From Utricularia gibba (lineage: Eukaryota > Streptophyta > Magnoliopsida > Lamiales > Lentibulariaceae), in assembly GCA_002189035.1 (NCBI GenBank), contig NEEC01000004.1, forward strand, positions 3,534,001 to 3,598,000: a DNA stretch of 64,000 nucleotides. Direction: 5' to 3'. Below, piece after piece: positions 46,264 through 64,000 of the stretch (position 1 is its first letter; each line of letters opens with the position of its first letter). Both the position numbers and the translations under genes were made by a program. The notes beneath the pieces were generated by a model. The model was not told where the DNA came from. It saw only the letters and a list, made by a program, of their open reading frames with translations, and searched no databases.

Positions 46264-46499
46264 TGTTGGATGAAGTTGATGATCAAATTGAAGGCACTTT
46301 GACAATTTCTATCACTTCTGTACCTGAAAATAAGGATTCGGTCGAAGAGAGTCTCAACGAGAAGAAGATGAAAATCTACTCTCTTCGGAAGCTGGGTCTG
46401 ATTGTATTGGGTTGCAGCCAAATGAAGTGTAAGTCAACTAATGGATCTGATGTTGAGCCTAGTCCTCCAAGCCCATTGACCCAATGAAGACTGAAACAT
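46264..46499 (+). repeat. Left LTR of the Copia element, 3' part deleted
   Basis: It starts TGTTGGATGAAGTTGATG and matches 50815-51049 with few substitutions and one 3 bp indel near the start. The match ends at CTGAAACAT, after which gag-proximal sequence follows directly; the TATA and downstream parts present in the right LTR are absent. Confidence 0.85.
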
Positions 46500-49400: not shown

Positions 49401-50814
49401 AAATCCGGACGGCACCCACAACCGCTTCAAATCTCGGATAGTGGCAAAAGGCTATCTTCAACAAGCCGGGATTGATTACTGCGAGACATTTGCTCCTGTT
49501 GCCCGTCTTGATACCGTCAAGCTTATCATCGCCTTGGTAGCCTGCAACAACTGGAAATTGCACCATTTAAATATCAAGTGTGCCTTTCTAAATGGAGAAT
49601 TACATGAAAACATATATGTCCACCCGCCTCCAGGTTACCAACTTAAGAATGGGAAAGACAAAGTTTTGAAGCTCAAGAAAGCACTCTATGGACTAAAGCA
49701 GGCGCCTAAAGAATGGTATTCTACCATTGATTCTTATTTTATTGAGCAGGGGTATAATAGGAGCAAGAATGATACTACCCTCTATGCGCTTGAGACCGAA
49801 GCAGGGAAAGTTATAATATCTCTCTATGTAGACGATATTTTGATTACGGGAAGCGATACTAACCTTATTGAGGAACAAAAAACCAGACTGAAAAGCCGTT
49901 TTGAACTGGTGGATCTTGGTCTAACTCGGTACTTTCTAGGCCTAGAGATCCTGCAAAGCGAAGATTACATATTTGTGAATCAAAAAGGTATATTGAAGAT
50001 TTACTGATCACATATGGTCTTCACGATGCTAAGGGATGCAAGTTTCCATTCCCACCAGAAGCCAAACATAAACTCAGAAATTGTGAAGATGAATATCACA
50101 GCCCGCAAGACTATCAACGTCTCATTGGAGCCCTTCTCTATCTAACCGCTACTAGGCCTGATATTACTTTCGCAGTAGCCTACCTATCAAGATTTATGCA
50201 TAAATCGTATACTACCCACATGGAAGTAGCAAGGAAAATCCTCAAGTATTTAAAGTCATCCTCTGACCTCGGTCTATACTTTATAATAAGCACTAACCCT
50301 TCATTGAAAGGTTTTGTGGATTCCGATTTCGCAGGTGATGAAGATACTTGTAACTCTACCACAGGATATCTATTCACTTTGGGCTCAGCAACCTTTGCAT
50401 GGAACAGCAGAAAACAAAGCACCATCACTCAATCCTCGGCAAAGGCCGAGTATATAACTGGTGCAGCCGCGGCGAATCACACTCAATGGCTGATCAAACT
50501 TTGCGAAGATCTGCACATTCAAATCAACAAGCCAGTCATTCTAAAAATTGACAATAAATCGGCTATCAGCATAACACAAAATCCTGTGATGTTCGGACGC
50601 ACCAAGCACATAAAGATTAAGTATCATATCTTGCAGGAATATGTGAAAGAAGGATCTATCAAGCTTGAGTACCTACCCTTTGAAATGCAGGTCGCAGACA
50701 TTTTAACGAAGTGCCTCTTTTCCTCAAACTTCCATAATTTGCGAGAACTATTAGGGTTGAGGAGGAACCCTTCAGAAACTGATGAAGACCTTCAATTAAA
50801 TCATCAAGGAGGAA

Positions 50815-51156
50815 TGTTGGAAGTTGATGATCAAATTGAAGGCACTTCGACAATTTCTATCACTTCTGTACCTGAAAATAAGGATTCGGTCGAAGAGAGT
50901 CTCAACGAGAAGAAGATGAACATCTACTCTCTTTGGAAGCTGGGTCTGATTGTATTGGGTTGCAGCCAAATGAAGTGTAAGTCAGCTAATGGGTTTGATG
51001 TTGAGCCCAATCCTCCAAGCCCATTGACCCAATGAAGACTGAAACATAACGACAGGACAACGGCTCACTCTGACAGAACAATGGCTATTTTCTCTTATAT
51101 AAATAAGCCATGTAACATCCAAGAATTGACTTGCTTTCTAAGCCCTTCATACAACA
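50815..51156 (+). repeat. Right LTR of the Copia element
   Basis: It begins TGTTGGAAGTTGATG after the purine tract AAGGAGGAA, contains a TATA box (TATATAAAT near 51096) and probably ends CAACA at 51156, giving TGTTG...CAACA ends. The 5-mers outside (GCTTC left, GCTCT right) match imperfectly, so the right boundary is provisional. Confidence 0.7.
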
Positions 51157-51816: not shown

Positions 51817-51821
51817 CAATG

Positions 51822-54039
51822 TGATAAACGAAAAATAGGCTCCAAATATCCCATTGCCTTCACATGTTCTTCCTCCATCAATTCGGGACATTTATCAACG
51901 ATGTGTCCCATTCTGTGGTAGTTCCCGCAGGGCATATTCTTAGCTTGGAATAAAAAGAGTTCCTTCATCATCTCAGACATGGCTGCCACATTTTTCGTCA
52001 GCTCATTTTCTGATGACTTTGGCTTGTATTCCAGCTCATATACTCTTCTATTCAAGGCCTGTTTTCTGATTATGTGCCTGGAATGCTCAGCCAACTCCTC
52101 AAGTAGCGCAAGAGCTTCTGTGGAAGTTTTTTTTCTCAAAAATCCACCTGTTGCAGAGTCCACCAAGGCCCTATCTATGTATAGAAGACCATCATAAAAA
52201 TACTTGATCAATGCATTGGTCTGAAATCCATGGTGTGGACAGGAGCCTAGCAGGTTTTTAAAGCGTTCCCAATATTCATGTAGAGATTCTCCACTTGTTT
52301 GCTCAATGTCACTGATCTCCTTCCTTATTCCTCCAGCTTTTGAAGCAGGGAATTATTTGCTGAGAAATACATTCTTCATCCCACTCCAATCTGTGATACT
52401 TCCCGGCTTCAAAGAGTTAAACCATGTTTTTGCACTCCCTTCCAGTGTAAATTGGAATGCCCTCAAACAGATGGCATCCTCAGTCATACCAGCACTCTTA
52501 AAAGAGGTGCAAACAGCAGTCACGTTGTCAAGATGTTCATGGGTTCTCACCCACTTTTCCATAATACTTGGGCAGAAAATTAATCATAGCTGGCTTCAAT
52601 TCGTTGGCTGTGTCATCAGAGAACCTAATACACAGCCCTCTGTACGTATGGTCAGCTGCATCAAGCTCATTCAGGGTCTTCTCCTATTCTGCCATATTGA
52701 AATTAGTTTGAGCAACAGCAGCGAGTCTGCTCAACCTTGCTGCTTCTCTCACTCTTGTGCGGTTCTTGCTGATAGTTCTCTCGATTTCTGGATGGAAAAC
52801 AAGATCACCTACACTAGAAGAACGCAAATGCATCAACCGAATCACAAAACAATTAAACACCGCTCCCCGGAAACGGCGCCAATTTGATAAACGAAAAATT
52901 GTACAAGTCGTTAATTGCAAATTTTCCTATCAAATAAATTTATAACCTAACCCACATTCAAGTATAAAACAATTATGAGCATAGTGATTAGGGTCGAACA
53001 CGAAGAGCAGGTGCTTGTCAAGTGATTAGCCAAAGCATGAAATCAGTGTCATGTTGGTAAAATTGGTCTTAACTAGGACTAACTCAGGACTACAACGAAA
53101 TACAGTAAAGAAAAGTAACAAGTTTGGATTCGATAGTTTCTGGAATGGAATGGGTGATACCTTGGAACTCTTAAGGGATGTATGCATATCACTAAACAAG
53201 CTCACATAAATCAAAAATCATTCAACTAACTCACAAGATCTAGGTCTACCCAGATTCTTGTTTTTCCCCCTAATCTTTGGTCTACCTCTAATTAGGGTTG
53301 TTAGTTGGGTTTCACTACTTCCCCCTCCTGGATCTATCCTGCTTTGTTAAGGAAGTAGTGTGACTTATGATTTATTAGGTCTAAGGATGGATTAGCATAT
53401 TTCTCCTCTTCTCACCCCAAGGCATCCCCTGTAAGTGCTTAGCTACTCATGGTAATGGAAAGTAAAACATCTTCATAGCAGATACTGAGCAATATCTTGG
53501 CTACAAATGCTAAACAACAACGAGCAATATGAAGCAAAAGTAGGACAAACACTTCGTTCACATAGGAAATCCAAATCTAGTCTTAGCTAGGAATAGTAAA
53601 CATGAAGAACGAAAATAATTTTTCAAGAGAAGCTGTGTTCTTCTAGTTCGTCGTCCCCTCCTTCTTCTTCTCTTAGAAAAATCTCCAGAAACTTCTCTTG
53701 AAATCTCCAAAGGGAGATCTCCTTCTCTCTCCAACTTTCCTCCATTTTTGTTCAAAATCTTCCTTTTTCACCTCCTTGGACTTTGTGTGTACTCTTCTTC
53801 AAACTTCTGTCACCTTTCCTGCCACCACACTATTCATACTCGGCTCCCTTGGATTTGTGCGACCCATGCTGCACTACTCGAAAGGAACTGTTAGAATTGC
53901 GATTTAGTCCCAACTAAGACTAAAAGTGCACTCCTACAATACTTATGTGCAAAAATATAGAAACAGGCAATTAAGCTTACTTTTTGTAGCATAAAATGAG
54001 TAAATTCCATGCATTGAGCCACTAAAAAATGTGTTATCA
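51822..54039 (-). mobile_element. Internally deleted Ty3/gypsy element (complete insertion with TSD CAATG)
   Basis: On the minus strand a 1155 bp 5' LTR (54039-52885) is followed by a primer-binding site (52881-52861, TGGCGCCGTTTCCGGGGAGC) and a gag frame (about 52810-51840). Visible gag motifs include TWFNSLKPGSITDW, the basic STEALALLEELAEHSR helix region and a degenerate zinc knuckle (CGNYHRMGHIVDKCPE). The gag end is fused to only about 14 bp of 3' LTR (TTTTTCGTTTATCA), so protease, pol and nearly all of the 3' LTR are gone. CAATG flanks both sides (51817-51821 and 54040-54044). The primer site type and gag fit the Athila/Tat lineage. Gag itself is interrupted by stops and frame changes. 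Confidence 0.85.
52861..52881 (-). other. Primer-binding site of the deleted gypsy element
   Basis: Read on the minus strand it is TGGCGCCGTTTCCGGGGAGC, three bases past the LTR edge. This is the TGGCGCCGTT-type site common to Athila/Tat elements. The same site recurs in the two downstream units (around 57324-57344 and 61790-61810). Confidence 0.8.
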
Positions 54040-54044
54040 CAATG

Positions 54045-55100
54045 CTATCGGGATTTTGTCATTTTCCATTTCAACTACTTTTTCATTTTTCTTGGACACT
54101 TCTTTTTATTGCTTCAGGTTGGTTTGGGCAATATTAAACATAATATGAGTTGATGCTGTGACACGGATTATAATAATTAGAAAACAAATTAAGTTTATAA
54201 ACAATCAAAATTTGACTTATCAAAAAATAATAAACAACCAACGTTTAATTTTTTCAATGTTTGACATTCATTTTTATTTTTATAATTTTATGTAATTTTT
54301 ACATTTAACTTCTTTATAGGTTAAAGTGAGCAATATATTTGAAAATATTTGATTAAGAGAATCAATAATAATAATAAGTTAATTTTATAAACGAATTGTG
54401 TATGAAATTGTTTTTTATAATTTTTTCTAAACACAAAGATATTTTACATATTTTTAAAGAGGGGTAGACTTAAAACTTATTTGCCGAAATTTAAAAATAT
54501 ATATATTATCAATGAAGAATTAATATAAATAAGAATAAAGTGTAAAATTATCTTTTTATTAATTGGAATTAAACTATCTATTCTAAATATGCATGCTATT
54601 TTAAATATATATTGGTAAATATATATATTTTCATTATATACTACCTATTATTTAAATACAAAAAATTAAATATTTAAAATACTCTTTCAAACGCAAACTG
54701 TTTATTTTAAAAAAACTCAGGTAAAATAATCGAGTGTGCCTTAATTGCTGTCTGGAAATTTAAACAATTTTATGAATTAGAAAAAAAAAAAAACGGAGAT
54801 GCTTCTTCTTCTTCTTTTTTTGTTTTGTTTTGTTTTAACATGGATTGTGCATGAGACGGCAGGGGCACCCCGCAGATTTGGGGAATGCTGTTTGAACCGT
54901 TCGTCATTCCATTTTTCTCTCGACCGATGCTCTTCACTTCTTCTCTCGTTTCTCTGCAATGCATTCCTCATTTCTTCTCCATCACCTCGACGCTGAACCT
55001 TGTTTCTACCACATTTTCACCTAGAACAAAACCCATTTCTCCAACGGAGTGGTTGCTCTGTTGATCGGGGGTGCCATCACTCTCGTCTGTGGCCGGCGAT
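54045..55100 (+). promoter_or_regulatory. Upstream region and 5' leader of the Ca2+-ATPase gene fragment (unit 1)
   Basis: About 1.06 kb lies between the gypsy LTR and the start codon. The distal 700 bp are AT-rich. From about 54780 the strand turns to an A13 run, a CTTCTTCTTCTTTTTTTG pyrimidine tract and a GC-richer leader, which looks like the transcribed 5' end. Copies are at 58512-59566 and from 62978 to the window end. Confidence 0.5.
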
Positions 55101-56356
55101 ATGGCTTCCGTTAACAACCATGCAATGGACGGCGACCACCCAGATATCGAGAATGGCGCAGATGACTGGCCCATCGACCCGGATTTCTCCGATCCCTTCG
55201 ACATTGCCAACACCAAGAAGGCGTCGCGAGAATCGCTCAAGCGTTGGAGGGTAAGATTTCGAGCATCCTGGTTTTTATTGCAGGAACTCGTGTTTTTCTA
55301 CCACCCGAACTCCTCTCATGTTTTTATAACAGCAAGCTGCGCTTGTGCTCAATGCTACCCGCCGGTTTCGATACACGTTAGATTTGAGAAAAGATGAAGA
55401 GCAAGATAAGAGGAGGCGTATGATTAGAGCGCATGCTCAAGTCATTCGGGTGATGAAGTCTAAATGCCATCAACTACCATTTCATTCCTTTTTAACTTCT
55501 TGATGTTAAACTTGCAATTCCATCGTAGGCTGCTTTGCTCTTCAAATTGGCTGGGCAGAGAGCGATAGGTGCTTCTGTATTCTCTATCTTCTGCTTTTGT
55601 GATAATTCGAAAATCATCATCTTTAAATAGGGTTTCATTCAGTTCTAGGTACTTCAGTTTCTCCTCCCTCTCCAAGTGGGGAGTATGGCATTGCACTTGA
55701 GCAGCTTGCTTCAATGAATAAGGACCAGAATGTTTCTGCACTGGAGCAGTATGGAGGGGCAAGATGACTGCATCCTTTATACCACTTTCATGTTTTTCTT
55801 GCAATGCGTGTACCCCACAAACTAATATCAACACAACTTCAGGTTAAAGGTCTATCAGAGATGCTGAAGACAAACTCTGAGACAGGGATTGATGGAGATG
55901 ATGTATTGGAAAGAAGGAAGGCCTATGGGTCAAATACGTATCCTGTGAAAAAAGGAAGAAGTTTCTTGGTAATGATTCATTTGTATTCTATGGCAATAAG
56001 TCTTTTGTCTCTTCTATTGTATTTTGGAGCTTTTGTTCACATCTTTTTTTTTTGAACATTCCGTTTCTGCTCCTTACCCAGTTATTTTTGTGCAGATGTT
56101 CCTATGGGACGCTTGGCAAGATTTGACTCTCATTATCTTAATCTTTGCTGCTGTAATATCATTGGTTCTTGGAATAAAAACTGAGGTTATTTTGCCTTCT
56201 CGGAGATTCGACACACTGTTGTCTAGATCATGATGAACCTGAGCTGCAGTCATGCCTAATTTGAGTAATTTCTGTTGCGTTTATAGGGCATCCAACAAGG
56301 ATGGTATGATGGGGGAAGCATTGCCTTTGCAGTTTTTCTGGTTATTTTTGTCACAG
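55101..56356 (+). pseudogene. 5' end (exons 1-7) of an autoinhibited plasma-membrane Ca2+-ATPase, unit 1
   Basis: Seven exons join in frame: 55101-55250, 55333-55449, 55529-55568, 55649-55758, 55843-55968, 56096-56185 and 56287-56356, 234 codons plus one base. The start MASVNNHAMDGDHPD is used because frames upstream of it change with an indel between copies. The N terminus has the plant calmodulin-binding autoinhibitory pattern (RWRQAALVLNATRRFRYTLD), then EYGIALEQLASMNKD and GSNTYPVKKGRSFL. Membrane helix 1 (LTLIILIFAAVISLVLGI) and helix 2 (SIAFAVFLVIFVT) follow. These match the type IIB pumps ACA8/9/10, which are about 1080 residues long. Everything after helix 2, including the phosphorylated Asp domain, is missing because the unit ends in intron 7. 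Intron 4 has a GC donor (GGG/GCAAGA). Confidence 0.88.
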
Positions 56357-56600
56357 GTGATTCCAATTTATTCTCCATCAAAGTTGCAAACATTCTGTTC
56401 TCCAATTTATATTTTCTTTTGACACCGAGGAAGTATTAACTATGAACTGTAATTTTTTAAAAGTGAGGCTCTTTTCTCAAATTTTTTCAGCCTAATGATT
56501 TTTCTGATTGGTGTGTTTGATTCATAAGTGATTTATTTGATTCTATTTTGATTGCATTCATTAATTTAAAATTGATCTGTTAGTGATGATGCACATTCAT

Positions 56601-58506
56601 AAAAATCCACCTGTTGCAGAGTCCACCAAGGCCCTATCTATGTATAGAAGACCATCATAAAAATACTTGATCAATGCATTGGTCTGAAATCCATGGTGTG
56701 GACAGGAGCCTAGCAGGTTTTTAAAGCGTTCCCAATATTCATGTAGAGATTCTCCACTTGTTTGCTCAATGTCACTGATCTCCTTCCTTATTCCTCCAGC
56801 TTTTGAAGCAGGGAATTATTTGCTGAGAAATACATTCTTCATCCCACTCCAATCTGTGATACTTCCCGGCTTCAAAGAGTTAAACCATGTTTTTGCACTC
56901 CCTTCCAGTGTAAATTGGAATGCCCTCAAACAGATGGCATCCTCAGTCATACCAGCACTCTTAAAAGAGGTGCAAACAGCAGTCACGTTGTCAAGATGTT
57001 CATGGGTTCTCACCCACTTTTCCATAATACTTGGGCAGAAAATTAATCATAGCTGGCTTCAATTCGTTGGCTGTGTCATCAGAGAACCTAATACACAGCC
57101 CTCTGTACGTATGGTCAGCTGCATCAAGCTCATTCAGGGTCTTCTCCTATTCTGCCATATTGAAATTAGTTTGAGCAACAGCAGCGAGTCTGCTCAACCT
57201 TGCTGCTTCTCTCACTCTTGTGCGGTTCTTGCTGATAGTTCTCTCGATTTCTGGATGGAAAACAAGATCACCTACACTAGAAGAACGCAAATGCATCAAC
57301 CGAATCACAAAACAATTAAACACCGCTCCCCGGAAACGGCGCCAATTTGATAAACGAAAAATTGTACAAGTCGTTAATTGCAAATTTTCCTATCAAATAA
57401 ATTTATAACCTAACCCACATTCAAGTATAAAACAATTATGAGCATAGTGATTAGGGTCGAACACGAAGAGCAGGTGCTTGTCAAGTGATTAGCCAAAGCA
57501 TGAAATCAGTGTCATGTTGGTAAAATTGGTCTTAACTAGGACTAACTCAGGACTACAACGAAATACAGTAAAGAAAAGTAACAAGTTTGGATTCGATAGT
57601 TTCTGGAATGGAATGGGTGATACCTTGGAACTCTTAAGGGATGTATGCATATCACTAAACAAGCTCACATAAATCAAAAATCATTCAACTAACTCACAAG
57701 ATCTAGGTCTACCCAGATTCTTGTTTTTCCCCCTAATCTTTGGTCTACCTCTAATTAGGGTTGTTAGTTGGGTTTCACTACTTCCCCCTCCTGGATCTAT
57801 CCTGCTTTGTTAAGGAAGTAGTGTGACTTATGATTTATTAGGTCTAAGGATGGATTAGCATATTTCTCCTCTTCTCACCCCAAGGCATCCCCCTGTAAGT
57901 GCTTAGCTACTCATGGTAATGGAAAGTAAAACATCTTCATAGCAGATACTGAGCAATATCTTGGCTACAAATGCTAAACAACAACGAGCAATATGAAGCA
58001 AAAGTAGGACAAACACTTCGTTCACATAGGAAATCCAAATCTAGTCTTAGCTAGGAATAGTAAACATGAAGAACGAAAATAATTTTTCAAGAGAAGCTGT
58101 GTTCTTCTAGTTCGTCGTCCCCTCCTTCTTCTTCTCTTAGAAAAATCTCCAGAAACTTCTCTTGAAATCTCCAAAGGGAGATCTCCTTCTCTCTCCAACT
58201 TTCCTCCATTTTTGTTCAAAATCTTCCTTTTTCACCTCCTTGGACTTTGTGTGTACTCTTCTTCAAACTTCTGTCACCTTTCCTGCCACCACACTATTCA
58301 TACTCGGCTCCCTTGGATTTGTGTTGCGACCCATGCTGCACTACTCGAAAGGAACTGTTAGAATTGCGATTTAGTCCCAACTAAGACTAAAAGTGCACTC
58401 CTACAATACTTATGTGCAAAAATATAGAAACAGGCAATTAAGCTTACTTTTTGTAGCATAAAATGAGTAAATTCCATGCATTGAGCCACTAAAAAATGTG
58501 TTATCA
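56601..58506 (-). mobile_element. Second copy of the gypsy gag fragment and LTR (unit 2)
   Basis: The stretch equals 52138-54039 of unit 1: a gag fragment (56601-57320), the primer-binding site, and an LTR at 57348-58506. It was duplicated passively as part of the tandem unit, so it has no left LTR end and no target duplication of its own on the left. Confidence 0.93.
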
Positions 58507-58511
58507 CAATG

Positions 58512-59566
58512 CTATCGGGATTTTGTCATTTTCCATTTCAACTACTTTTTCATTTTTCTTGGACACTTCTTTTTATTGCTTCAGGTTGGTTTGGGCAATA
58601 TTAAACATAATATGAGTTGATGCTGTGACACGGATTATAATAATTAGAAAACAAATTAAGTTTATAAACAATCAAAATTTGACTTATCAAAAAATAATAA
58701 ACAACCAACGTTTAATTTTTTCAATGTTTGACATTCATTTTTATTTTTATAATTTTATGTAATTTTTACATTTAACTTCTTTATAGGTTAAAGTGAGCAA
58801 TATATTTGAAAATATTTGATTAAGAGAATCAATAATAATAATAAGTTAATTTTATAAACGAATTGTGTATGAAATTGTTTTTTATAATTTTTTCTAAACA
58901 CAAAGATATTTTACATATTTTTAAAGAGGGGTAGACTTAAAACTTATTTGCCGAAATTTAAAAATATATATATTATCAATGAAGAATTAATATAAATAAG
59001 AATAAAGTGTAAAATTATCTTTTTATTAATTGGAATTAAACTATCTATTCTAAATATGCATGCTATTTTAAATATATATTGGTAAATATATATATTTTCA
59101 TTATATACTACCTATTATTTAAATACAAAAAATTAAATATTTAAAATACTCTTTCAAACGCAAACTGTTTATTTTAAAAAAACTCAGGTAAAATAATCGA
59201 GTGTGCCTTAATTGCTGTCTGGAAATTTAAACAATTTTATGAATTAGAAAAAAAAAAAAACGGAGATGCTTCTTCTTCTTCTTTTTTTGTTTTGTTTTGT
59301 TTTAACATGGATTGTGCATGAGACGGCAGGGGCACCCCGCAGATTTGGGGAATGCTGTTTGAACCGTTCGTCATTCCATTTTTCTCTCGACCGATGCTCT
59401 TCACTTCTTCTCTCGTTTCTCTGCAATGCATTCCTCATTTCTTCTCCATCACCTCGACGCTGAACCTTGTTTCTACCACATTTTCACCTAGAACAAAACC
59501 CATTTCTCCAACGGAGTGGTTGCTCTGTTGATCGGGGTGCCATCACTCTCGTCTGTGGCCGGCGAT
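58512..59566 (+). promoter_or_regulatory. Duplicated upstream region of the Ca2+-ATPase fragment (unit 2)
   Basis: It is equivalent to 54045-55100 and retains the A-run, CT tract and leader. One G is missing from the GATCGGGG run near 59531-59537 compared with unit 1. Confidence 0.6.
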
Positions 59567-60822
59567 ATGGCTTCCGTTAACAACCATGCAATGGACGGCG
59601 ACCACCCAGATATCGAGAATGGCGCAGATGACTGGCCCATCGACCCGGATTTCTCCGATCCCTTCGACATTGCCAACACCAAGAAGGCGTCGCGAGAATC
59701 GCTCAAGCGTTGGAGGGTAAGATTTCGAGCATCCTGGTTTTTATTGCAGGAACTCGTGTTTTTCTACCACCCGAACTCCTCTCATGTTTTTATAACAGCA
59801 AGCTGCGCTTGTGCTCAATGCTACCCGCCGGTTTCGATACACGTTAGATTTGAGAAAAGATGAAGAGCAAGATAAGAGGAGGCGTATGATTAGAGCGCAT
59901 GCTCAAGTCATTCGGGTGATGAAGTCTAAATGCCATCAACTACCATTTCATTCCTTTTTAACTTCTTGATGTTAAACTTGCAATTCCATCGTAGGCTGCT
60001 TTGCTCTTCAAATTGGCTGGGCAGAGAGCGATAGGTGCTTCTGTATTCTCTATCTTCTGCTTTTGTGATAATTCGAAAATCATCATCTTTAAATAGGGTT
60101 TCATTCAGTTCTAGGTACTTCAGTTTCTCCTCCCTCTCCAAGTGGGGAGTATGGCATTGCACTTGAGCAGCTTGCTTCAATGAATAAGGACCAGAATGTT
60201 TCTGCACTGGAGCAGTATGGAGGGGCAAGATGACTGCATCCTTTATACCACTTTCATGTTTTTCTTGCAATGCGTGTACCCCACAAACTAATATCAACAC
60301 AACTTCAGGTTAAAGGTCTATCAGAGATGCTGAAGACAAACTCTGAGACAGGGATTGATGGAGATGATGTATTGGAAAGAAGGAAGGCCTATGGGTCAAA
60401 TACGTATCCTGTGAAAAAAGGAAGAAGTTTCTTGGTAATGATTCATTTGTATTCTATGGCAATAAGTCTTTTGTCTCTTCTATTGTATTTTGGAGCTTTT
60501 GTTCACATCTTTTTTTTTTGAACATTCCGTTTCTGCTCCTTACCCAGTTATTTTTGTGCAGATGTTCCTATGGGACGCTTGGCAAGATTTGACTCTCATT
60601 ATCTTAATCTTTGCTGCTGTAATATCATTGGTTCTTGGAATAAAAACTGAGGTTATTTTGCCTTCTCGGAGATTCGACACACTGTTGTCTAGATCATGAT
60701 GAACCTGAGCTGCAGTCATGCCTAATTTGAGTAATTTCTGTTGCGTTTATAGGGCATCCAACAAGGATGGTATGATGGGGGAAGCATTGCCTTTGCAGTT
60801 TTTCTGGTTATTTTTGTCACAG
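59567..60822 (+). pseudogene. 5' end (exons 1-7) of the Ca2+-ATPase gene, unit 2
   Basis: It has the same seven exons as unit 1, shifted by 4466 bp: 59567-59716, 59799-59915, 59995-60034, 60115-60224, 60309-60434, 60562-60651 and 60753-60822. All splice sites, including the GC donor after 60224, are kept and I see no coding difference. The fragment again ends in intron 7, which runs into the gag sequence of unit 3 at 61067. Because it carries the same upstream DNA as unit 1, it may be transcribed. A complete gene, if one exists, should lie to the right of the window. Confidence 0.88.
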
Positions 60823-61066
60823 GTGATTCCAATTTATTCTCCATCAAAGTTGCAAACATTCTGTTCTCCAATTTATATTTTCTTTTGACACCGAGGAAGT
60901 ATTAACTATGAACTGTAATTTTTTAAAAGTGAGGCTCTTTTCTCAAATTTTTTCAGCCTAATGATTTTTCTGATTGGTGTGTTTGATTCATAAGTGATTT
61001 ATTTGATTCTATTTTGATTGCATTCATTAATTTAAAATTGATCTGTTAGTGATGATGCACATTCAT

Positions 61067-62972
61067 AAAAATCCACCTGTTGCAGAGTCCACCAAGGCCC
61101 TATCTATGTATAGAAGACCATCATAAAAATACTTGATCAATGCATTGGTCTGAAATCCATGGTGTGGACAGGAGCCTAGCAGGTTTTTAAAGCGTTCCCA
61201 ATATTCATGTAGAGATTCTCCACTTGTTTGCTCAATGTCACTGATCTCCTTCCTTATTCCTCCAGCTTTTGAAGCAGGGAATTATTTGCTGAGAAATACA
61301 TTCTTCATCCCACTCCAATCTGTGATACTTCCCGGCTTCAAAGAGTTAAACCATGTTTTTGCACTCCCTTCCAGTGTAAATTGGAATGCCCTCAAACAGA
61401 TGGCATCCTCAGTCATACCAGCACTCTTAAAAGAGGTGCAAACAGCAGTCACGTTGTCAAGATGTTCATGGGTTCTCACCCACTTTTCCATAATACTTGG
61501 GCAGAAAATTAATCATAGCTGGCTTCAATTCGTTGGCTGTGTCATCAGAGAACCTAATACACAGCCCTCTGTACGTATGGTCAGCTGCATCAAGCTCATT
61601 CAGGGTCTTCTCCTATTCTGCCATATTGAAATTAGTTTGAGCAACAGCAGCGAGTCTGCTCAACCTTGCTGCTTCTCTCACTCTTGTGCGGTTCTTGCTG
61701 ATAGTTCTCTCGATTTCTGGATGGAAAACAAGATCACCTACACTAGAAGAACGCAAATGCATCAACCGAATCACAAAACAATTAAACACCGCTCCCCGGA
61801 AACGGCGCCAATTTGATAAACGAAAAATTGTACAAGTCGTTAATTGCAAATTTTCCTATCAAATAAATTTATAACCTAACCCACATTCAAGTATAAAACA
61901 ATTATGAGCATAGTGATTAGGGTCGAACACGAAGAGCAGGTGCTTGTCAAGTGATTAGCCAAAGCATGAAATCAGTGTCATGTTGGTAAAATTGGTCTTA
62001 ACTAGGACTAACTCAGGACTACAACGAAATACAGTAAAGAAAAGTAACAAGTTTGGATTCGATAGTTTCTGGAATGGAATGGGTGATACCTTGGAACTCT
62101 TAAGGGATGTATGCATATCACTAAACAAGCTCACATAAATCAAAAATCATTCAACTAACTCACAAGATCTAGGTCTACCCAGATTCTTGTTTTTCCCCCT
62201 AATCTTTGGTCTACCTCTAATTAGGGTTGTTAGTTGGGTTTCACTACTTCCCCCTCCTGGATCTATCCTGCTTTGTTAAGGAAGTAGTGTGACTTATGAT
62301 TTATTAGGTCTAAGGATGGATTAGCATATTTCTCCTCTTCTCACCCCAAGGCATCCCCCTGTAAGTGCTTAGCTACTCATGGTAATGGAAAGTAAAACAT
62401 CTTCATAGCAGATACTGAGCAATATCTTGGCTACAAATGCTAAACAACAACGAGCAATATGAAGCAAAAGTAGGACAAACACTTCGTTCACATAGGAAAT
62501 CCAAATCTAGTCTTAGCTAGGAATAGTAAACATGAAGAACGAAAATAATTTTTCAAGAGAAGCTGTGTTCTTCTAGTTCGTCGTCCCCTCCTTCTTCTTC
62601 TCTTAGAAAAATCTCCAGAAACTTCTCTTGAAATCTCCAAAGGGAGATCTCCTTCTCTCTCCAACTTTCCTCCATTTTTGTTCAAAATCTTCCTTTTTCA
62701 CCTCCTTGGACTTTGTGTGTACTCTTCTTCAAACTTCTGTCACCTTTCCTGCCACCACACTATTCATACTCGGCTCCCTTGGATTTGTGTTGCGACCCAT
62801 GCTGCACTACTCGAAAGGAACTGTTAGAATTGCGATTTAGTCCCAACTAAGACTAAAAGTGCACTCCTACAATACTTATGTGCAAAAATATAGAAACAGG
62901 CAATTAAGCTTACTTTTTGTAGCATAAAATGAGTAAATTCCATGCATTGAGCCACTAAAAAATGTGTTATCA
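61067..62972 (-). mobile_element. Third copy of the gypsy gag fragment and LTR (unit 3)
   Basis: It is equivalent to the unit 2 copy, with the LTR at 61814-62972. The junction with the Ca2+-ATPase intron is identical to the unit 1/unit 2 junction. Confidence 0.93.
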
Positions 62973-62977
62973 CAATG

Positions 62978-64000
62978 CTATCGGGATTTTGTCATTTTCC
63001 ATTTCAACTACTTTTTCATTTTTCTTGGACACTTCTTTTATTGCTTCAGGTTGGTTTGGGCAATATTAAACATAATATGAGTTGATGCTGTGACACGGAT
63101 TATAATAATTAGAAAACAAATTAAGTTTATAAACAATCAAAATTTGACTTATCAAAAAAATAATAAACAACCAACGTTTAATTTTTTCAATGTTTGACAT
63201 TCATTTTTATTTTATAATTTTATGTAATTTTTACATTTAACTTCTTTATAGGTTAAAGTGAGCAATATATTTGAAAATATTTGATTAAGAGAATCAATAA
63301 TAATAATAAGTTAATTTTATAAACGAATTGTGTATGAAATTGTTTTTTATAATTTTTCTAAACACAAAGATATTTTACATATTTTTAAAGAGGGGTAGAC
63401 TTAAAACTTATTTGCCGAAATTTAAAAATATATATATTATCAATGAAGAATTAATATAAATAAGAATAAAGTGTAAAATTATCTTTTATTAATTGGAATT
63501 AAACTATCTATTCTAAATATGCATGCTATTTTAAATATATATTGGTAAATATATATATTTTCATTATATACTACCTATTATTTAAATACAAAAAATTAAA
63601 TATTTAAAATACTCTTTCAAACGCAAACTGTTTATTTTAAAAAAACTCAGGTAAAATAATCGAGTGTGCCTTAATTGCTGTCTGGAAATTTAAACAATTT
63701 TATGAATTAGAAAAAAAAAAAAACGGAGATGCTTCTTCTTCTTCTTTTTTTGTTTTGTTTTGTTTTAACATGGATTGTGCATGAGACGGCAGGGCACCCC
63801 GCAGATTTGGGGAATGCTGTTTGAACCGTTCGTCATTCCATTTTTCTCTCGACCGATGCTCTTCACTTCTTCTCTCGTTTCTCTGCAATGCATTCCTCAT
63901 TTCTTCTCCATCACCTCGACGCTGAACCTTGTTTCTACCACATTTTCACCTAGAACAAAACCCATTTCTCCAACGGAGTGGTTGCTCTGTTGATCGGGGG
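62978..64000 (+). promoter_or_regulatory. Upstream region of the Ca2+-ATPase gene, unit 3, cut by the window edge
   Basis: It is equivalent to 54045 to about 55070. It carries more homopolymer-length differences than the other units (shortened T runs near 63037, 63211, 63356 and 63486, an A run gained near 63155, and one G lost near 63790). The start codon would lie about 30 bp beyond the window. Confidence 0.7.

Follow-up and report, generated by a model that had tools for sequence, protein, structure and literature searches.

A young partial tandem duplication of an ACA8/10-type Ca2+-ATPase gene, with a retrotransposon LTR in every unit, in Utricularia gibba

Structure and copy number of the array

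The right end of the window, by which we mean the whole 64,000-nucleotide stretch of Utricularia gibba DNA that was analysed, raises the question of how the 5' part of a calcium pump gene came to be repeated head to tail together with a retrotransposon LTR, and whether the copies have any effect on the pump. Self-comparison identified three copies in the window at a spacing of 4,462-4,467 bp, with ~99.8-99.9% identity. These are U1 (52138..56600, plus strand, 4,463 bp), U2 (56601..61066, plus strand, 4,466 bp) and the opening 2.9 kb of U3 (61067..64000, plus strand, 2,934 bp in the window, end at 65529), which together fill window 52138-64000. The original prediction of a 4.46 kb head-to-tail unit, present as two full copies and a partial one, was therefore confirmed for the window, and the array is larger beyond it.

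To describe the remainder of the locus we use extended coordinates (positions >64000), for which the window was carried on into the same contig (C413). Past the window the contig contains the rest of U3, U4 (65530-69996), U5 (69997-74463), a partial unit U6 (74464-76378), 7.7 kb of gypsy interior and U7 (84114-88577), which continues unbroken into exon 8 and later exons of a full-length ACA8/10-type Ca2+-ATPase gene. The rightward extension that had been proposed as a check thus found five complete 4.46-kb units, the partial U6 and, after U7, the full-length gene; the array spans 24.5 kb, and the count, coming from the assembly only, is an estimate. In the assembled contig, the layout named beforehand as evidence against an array, in which the left flank would lead via a single unit to the full gene, is absent.

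When the whole assembly was searched, the ACA 5' region was found six times, all at the array locus, with just short or weak matches elsewhere, and the intron/gag joint was found exactly five times, again all at this locus. The joint between units is recurrent and non-allelic, and the flank left of the array is single copy. Chance is excluded as the source of the repeats, and the locus is a young partial tandem gene duplication in which incomplete head-to-tail copies, with their introns kept, lie beside the full gene. A short direct repeat at window 46272-46499, with a spacing of 4,548 bp, is apparently unrelated to the array.

From left to right each unit consists of minus-strand gag, a probable primer-binding site, a 1,155-bp LTR, the motif CAATG and, from the pump gene, ~1.06 kb of upstream sequence followed by exons 1-7. 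The parts are as originally described, namely a minus-strand gypsy gag-LTR piece (with similarity to Retrotrans_gag) joined to the upstream region and N-terminal exons of an ACA8-type pump, and the claim that the promoter region and first seven exons were multiplied with an LTR in every unit is supported.

The calcium pump gene

In U1 the gene part, all on the plus strand, comprises an upstream region presumed to hold the promoter and 5' UTR (54045..55100), the coding part of exon 1 (55101..55250), exon 2 (55333..55449), exon 3 (55529..55568), exon 4 (55649..55758, followed by a GC donor), exon 5 (55843..55968), exon 6 (56096..56185) and exon 7 (56287..56356), whose phase-1 donor leads into a truncated intron 7. 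These exons total 703 coding bases (234 codons), encode the N-terminal autoinhibitory domain plus the first part of the pump, and are open and identical across U1-U5. Intron 4 is a GC-AG intron (GC at window 55759), on which the copies agree.

We assigned the gene to the type IIB autoinhibited Ca2+-ATPases (ACA8/9/10 group) based on its N-terminal autoinhibitory domain and a P-type ATPase sequence like that of A. thaliana ACA8. We pieced together the protein of the full gene by eye from open frames, and residues 30 to 1042 of this query align with A. thaliana ACA8 (8qmp). As assembled, the full gene has two homopolymer frameshifts, one in exon 7 of U7, which is one G short in a run of five (extended 88291; C413:3622291), and one in a C run near extended 93005 (C413:~3627005). 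Sequencing error is a likelier source of these frameshifts than a truly broken full gene, given the open exon 7 of U1-U5 and the youth of the array. Such errors do not pervade the assembly, since a pump-like gene on contig C1 gives a single uninterrupted match of ~970 residues. Two further ACA8-like genes, on contigs C3 and C414, have single-copy 5' ends. Judged from its sequence, the full gene at the array locus probably still works because this last copy retains its own promoter region and all exons, although the two frameshifts as assembled keep this from being certain.

The retrotransposon and the origin of the array

The element associated with the array is a Ty3/gypsy retrotransposon, as indicated by TG..CA LTR ends, a target-site duplication, a primer-binding site, gag, RT-RNaseH and integrase. 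In U1 it is represented, on the minus strand, by part of gag (Retrotrans_gag, with a broken frame) and the leader (52138..52863), by TGGCGCCGTTTCCGGGGA (52864..52881), which we take to be the primer-binding site, and by the 1,155-bp LTR (52885..54039, TGATAA...TTATCA); the LTRs of U2 and U3 lie at 57348..58506 and 61814..62972, also on the minus strand. RNase H, integrase and a protease-like piece are encoded on the minus strand of the gypsy interior after U6.

The target-site duplication CAATG marks the left end of the original retrotransposon at 51817..51821 and recurs after every gene-linked LTR (54040-54044 in U1). Its presence both left of the array and after each of these LTRs shows that a single retrotransposon insertion came first. 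The LTR is a passenger that was upstream of the gene already before amplification, since the target-site duplication places the element there at that stage. Having gag and an LTR beside gene sequence in each unit could also be expected if a retrotransposon had captured a gene fragment and the two were then amplified together. However, the introns are kept, which indicates copying via DNA, and the gene fragment occurs nowhere else in the genome. We rejected such a capture, which we regard as extremely improbable, on the basis that CAATG marks the end of the element outside the gene part and so separates element from gene. No LTR-gene fusions with target-site duplications of their own were found elsewhere when the whole assembly was searched.

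Directly after the leftmost CAATG is a 15-bp remnant of the left LTR (51822..51836, minus strand), followed by a 1-bp filler; the rest of the left LTR and most of the interior are deleted. The next stretch, left of U1, is 300 bp of minus-strand gag (51838..52137) that is collinear with the gag before U7 (extended 83814-84113), and the array therefore starts inside the original element. A Ty1-copia-like pol reading is found a short way left of the array (window 50000-51020), and the one piece of it that was tried gave no Pfam match.

The intron 7/gag joint (56589..56610) reads ...CATTC, AT and AAAAATCC... in succession, and the motif TTCTCA is present at the break in both parent sequences. At the other end of the array, U6 is cut off at the end of its LTR and is followed by the 7.7 kb gypsy interior, which is nearly whole. 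Alignments to other copies of the family in the genome cross this point, so it is the natural boundary between LTR and interior.

We think it likely that part of the gene was amplified at its own locus very recently, by the following steps. First, the Ty3/gypsy element inserted in opposite orientation ~1.06 kb upstream of the ACA8/10-type gene, as the target-site duplication shows. Second, as the joint suggests, end joining with short homology and a 2-bp filler would have linked a break in intron 7 to gag, giving a tandem duplication of gag, LTR, promoter and exons 1-7. Third, the unit was presumably multiplied to about five by unequal exchange. Fourth, an unamplified chromatid or homologue would have exchanged at its left LTR with the LTR of a unit, so that the full gene and a nearly whole element came to lie right of the array; we propose this LTR-LTR exchange as the cause of the truncation of U6. 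Fifth, a deletion took out most of the leftmost element, an event visible in the structure described above. We infer the order of the second to fifth steps. The probable source of the copies is a recent DNA repair accident.

Identical head-to-tail units with a single recurrent joint, and recombination at an LTR, would also be expected if the intron/gag joint had first closed a 4.46-kb extrachromosomal circle that formed a concatemer and then recombined into the locus via the LTR. Insertion at the left LTR, however, predicts an LTR next to the gene part at the start of the array, but 300 bp of original gag precede U1, which fits duplication in place and not insertion of a circle. As a circle also requires one more event, we view it as quite improbable.

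Age of the units and quality of the assembly

Over ~28.7 kb of aligned sequence there are 0 substitutions between units; the differences are just single-base indels in homopolymers and one 3-bp indel in U1, which is outside any homopolymer run. At a substitution rate of 7e-9 per site per year, the absence of substitutions sets an upper bound of ~15,000 years on the age of the last common copy, unless exchange keeps the units alike.

The single-base indels are not evenly spread. Eight of the 11 in U1-U6 are >10,385 bp, the mean subread length reported (PMC5793159) for the U. gibba PacBio assembly, probably the one used here, from both unique edges, a zone that makes up 15% of the array (binomial P ~3e-5, although neighbouring indels are maybe non-independent). 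Six of the 11, all in homopolymers, fall within 760 bp mid-array (U3, extended 63037-63797). Such clustering suggests that few anchored reads were available to polish the middle of the array, which was probably bridged by unanchored ones. The exact copy number is insecure because the indels cluster beyond the mean read length from unique DNA.

These features bear on a partial assembly artefact, in which the joint is real but the assembler misset the copy number, or else the connection of U6 via its LTR to the interior, for example by amplified and unamplified haplotypes having been joined at the identical 1.155-kb LTR. Such an artefact is consistent with a 24.5 kb array that exceeds the mean subread, with consensus indels clustered mid-array and with units that have no distinguishing substitutions. 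However, the outer joints are within 2-5 kb of unique DNA and ordinary reads would therefore span them, U1 is set apart by its non-homopolymer 3-bp indel, and the ACA 5' region is on no alternative haplotype contig. Also against it is the tendency of assemblers to collapse such arrays more often than they expand them. We accordingly rate a partial artefact as unlikely, with an appreciable chance nevertheless, and retain stepwise amplification in place as our reading of the locus.

Possible effects on the pump

In all likelihood the upstream copies arose as by-products and have little function, if any. The original prediction had suggested several promoters, truncated products or RNA silencing of the parent gene, any of which may result from the arrangement. 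Exon 7 ends in phase 1, which matches the phase of exon 8 in the full gene, so an upstream promoter could in principle yield the normal protein across an intron of >14 kb. Joining exon 7 to exon 2 in the following unit is predicted to meet a stop after 19 codons, splicing of exon 7 to exon 4 is predicted to keep the frame open, and read-through into intron 7 would add 27 residues. The LTR in each unit, on the minus strand, is directed towards the exons of the preceding, left-hand unit, so converging transcription may also occur.

Based on these features, we weighed whether the array might be functional, with upstream promoters adding full-length transcripts, by splicing of exon 7 to exon 8 or of exon 1 to exon 2 as in PEP1 of Arabis alpina, or with antisense LTR transcripts silencing the pump. 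The intact, identical exons 1-7 of U1-U5, the phase-1 end of exon 7, which suits exon 8 in the full gene, the possible sense/antisense convergence and the precedents of PEP1, rice IPA1 and maize b1 would all agree with such a role. Conversely, the nearer acceptor, exon 2 of the next unit, leads to the early stop, the needed intron is >14 kb, and any constraint would not yet show in so young an array. Additionally, U. gibba has a truncated DCL3 and few 24-nt siRNAs (PMC8333044), and strong RNA-directed silencing would be less likely given this reduced 24-nt siRNA pathway. We judge a functional array to be improbable. The specific expectation that the array acts on the pump, through ~five extra promoters feeding full-length transcripts by splicing or through convergent sense and LTR-antisense transcription that sets the pump level, appears more doubtful still. 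Should the copies be expressed, the locus would offer a natural experiment on how a calcium pump responds to extra copies of its promoter and first exons.

Comparison with known systems

A literature search for the same arrangement identified precedents and no array of the same make-up. This kind of rearrangement is already known, and the U. gibba locus adds a new and unusually clear case, in which there are several copies and the history can be read: it retains recognisable traces of insertion, joint, multiplication, LTR exchange and deletion, and provides a readable example of a transposon beside a gene taking part in the amplification of just the 5' part of that gene.

Among the plant precedents found, PEP1 of Arabis alpina comes closest; there, a promoter and 5' exon region is likewise tandemly duplicated upstream of a full plant gene. 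PEP1 has two copies, of exon 1 only and with diverged upstream sequences, and transcripts from both have been demonstrated, with splicing to one shared exon 2 (PMC3527215). In contrast, the U. gibba locus has about five identical extra copies that include exons 1-7 and an LTR in each. In rice, the IPA1 allele ipa1-2D has three distal non-coding repeats with a demonstrated effect on expression (PMC5364388); as in U. gibba, these are natural head-to-tail repeats upstream of a gene with transposons near, but only in U. gibba are exons inside the repeats. Maize b1 has seven non-coding repeats of 853 bp ~100 kb away, for which siRNAs and paramutation have been demonstrated (PMC3798267), and it resembles the U. 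gibba locus, to judge by sequence, in having a multi-copy tandem repeat upstream of a gene.

Cassandra forms LTR-containing tandem arrays in plants, in which the unit is the retroelement itself (PMC7215508) and has no host gene part, unlike the units described here. In nematodes and flies, young gene duplicates are often partial; such partial duplicates have been studied mostly as pairs (PMC3449122), whereas the U. gibba locus carries about five extra ones arranged head to tail.
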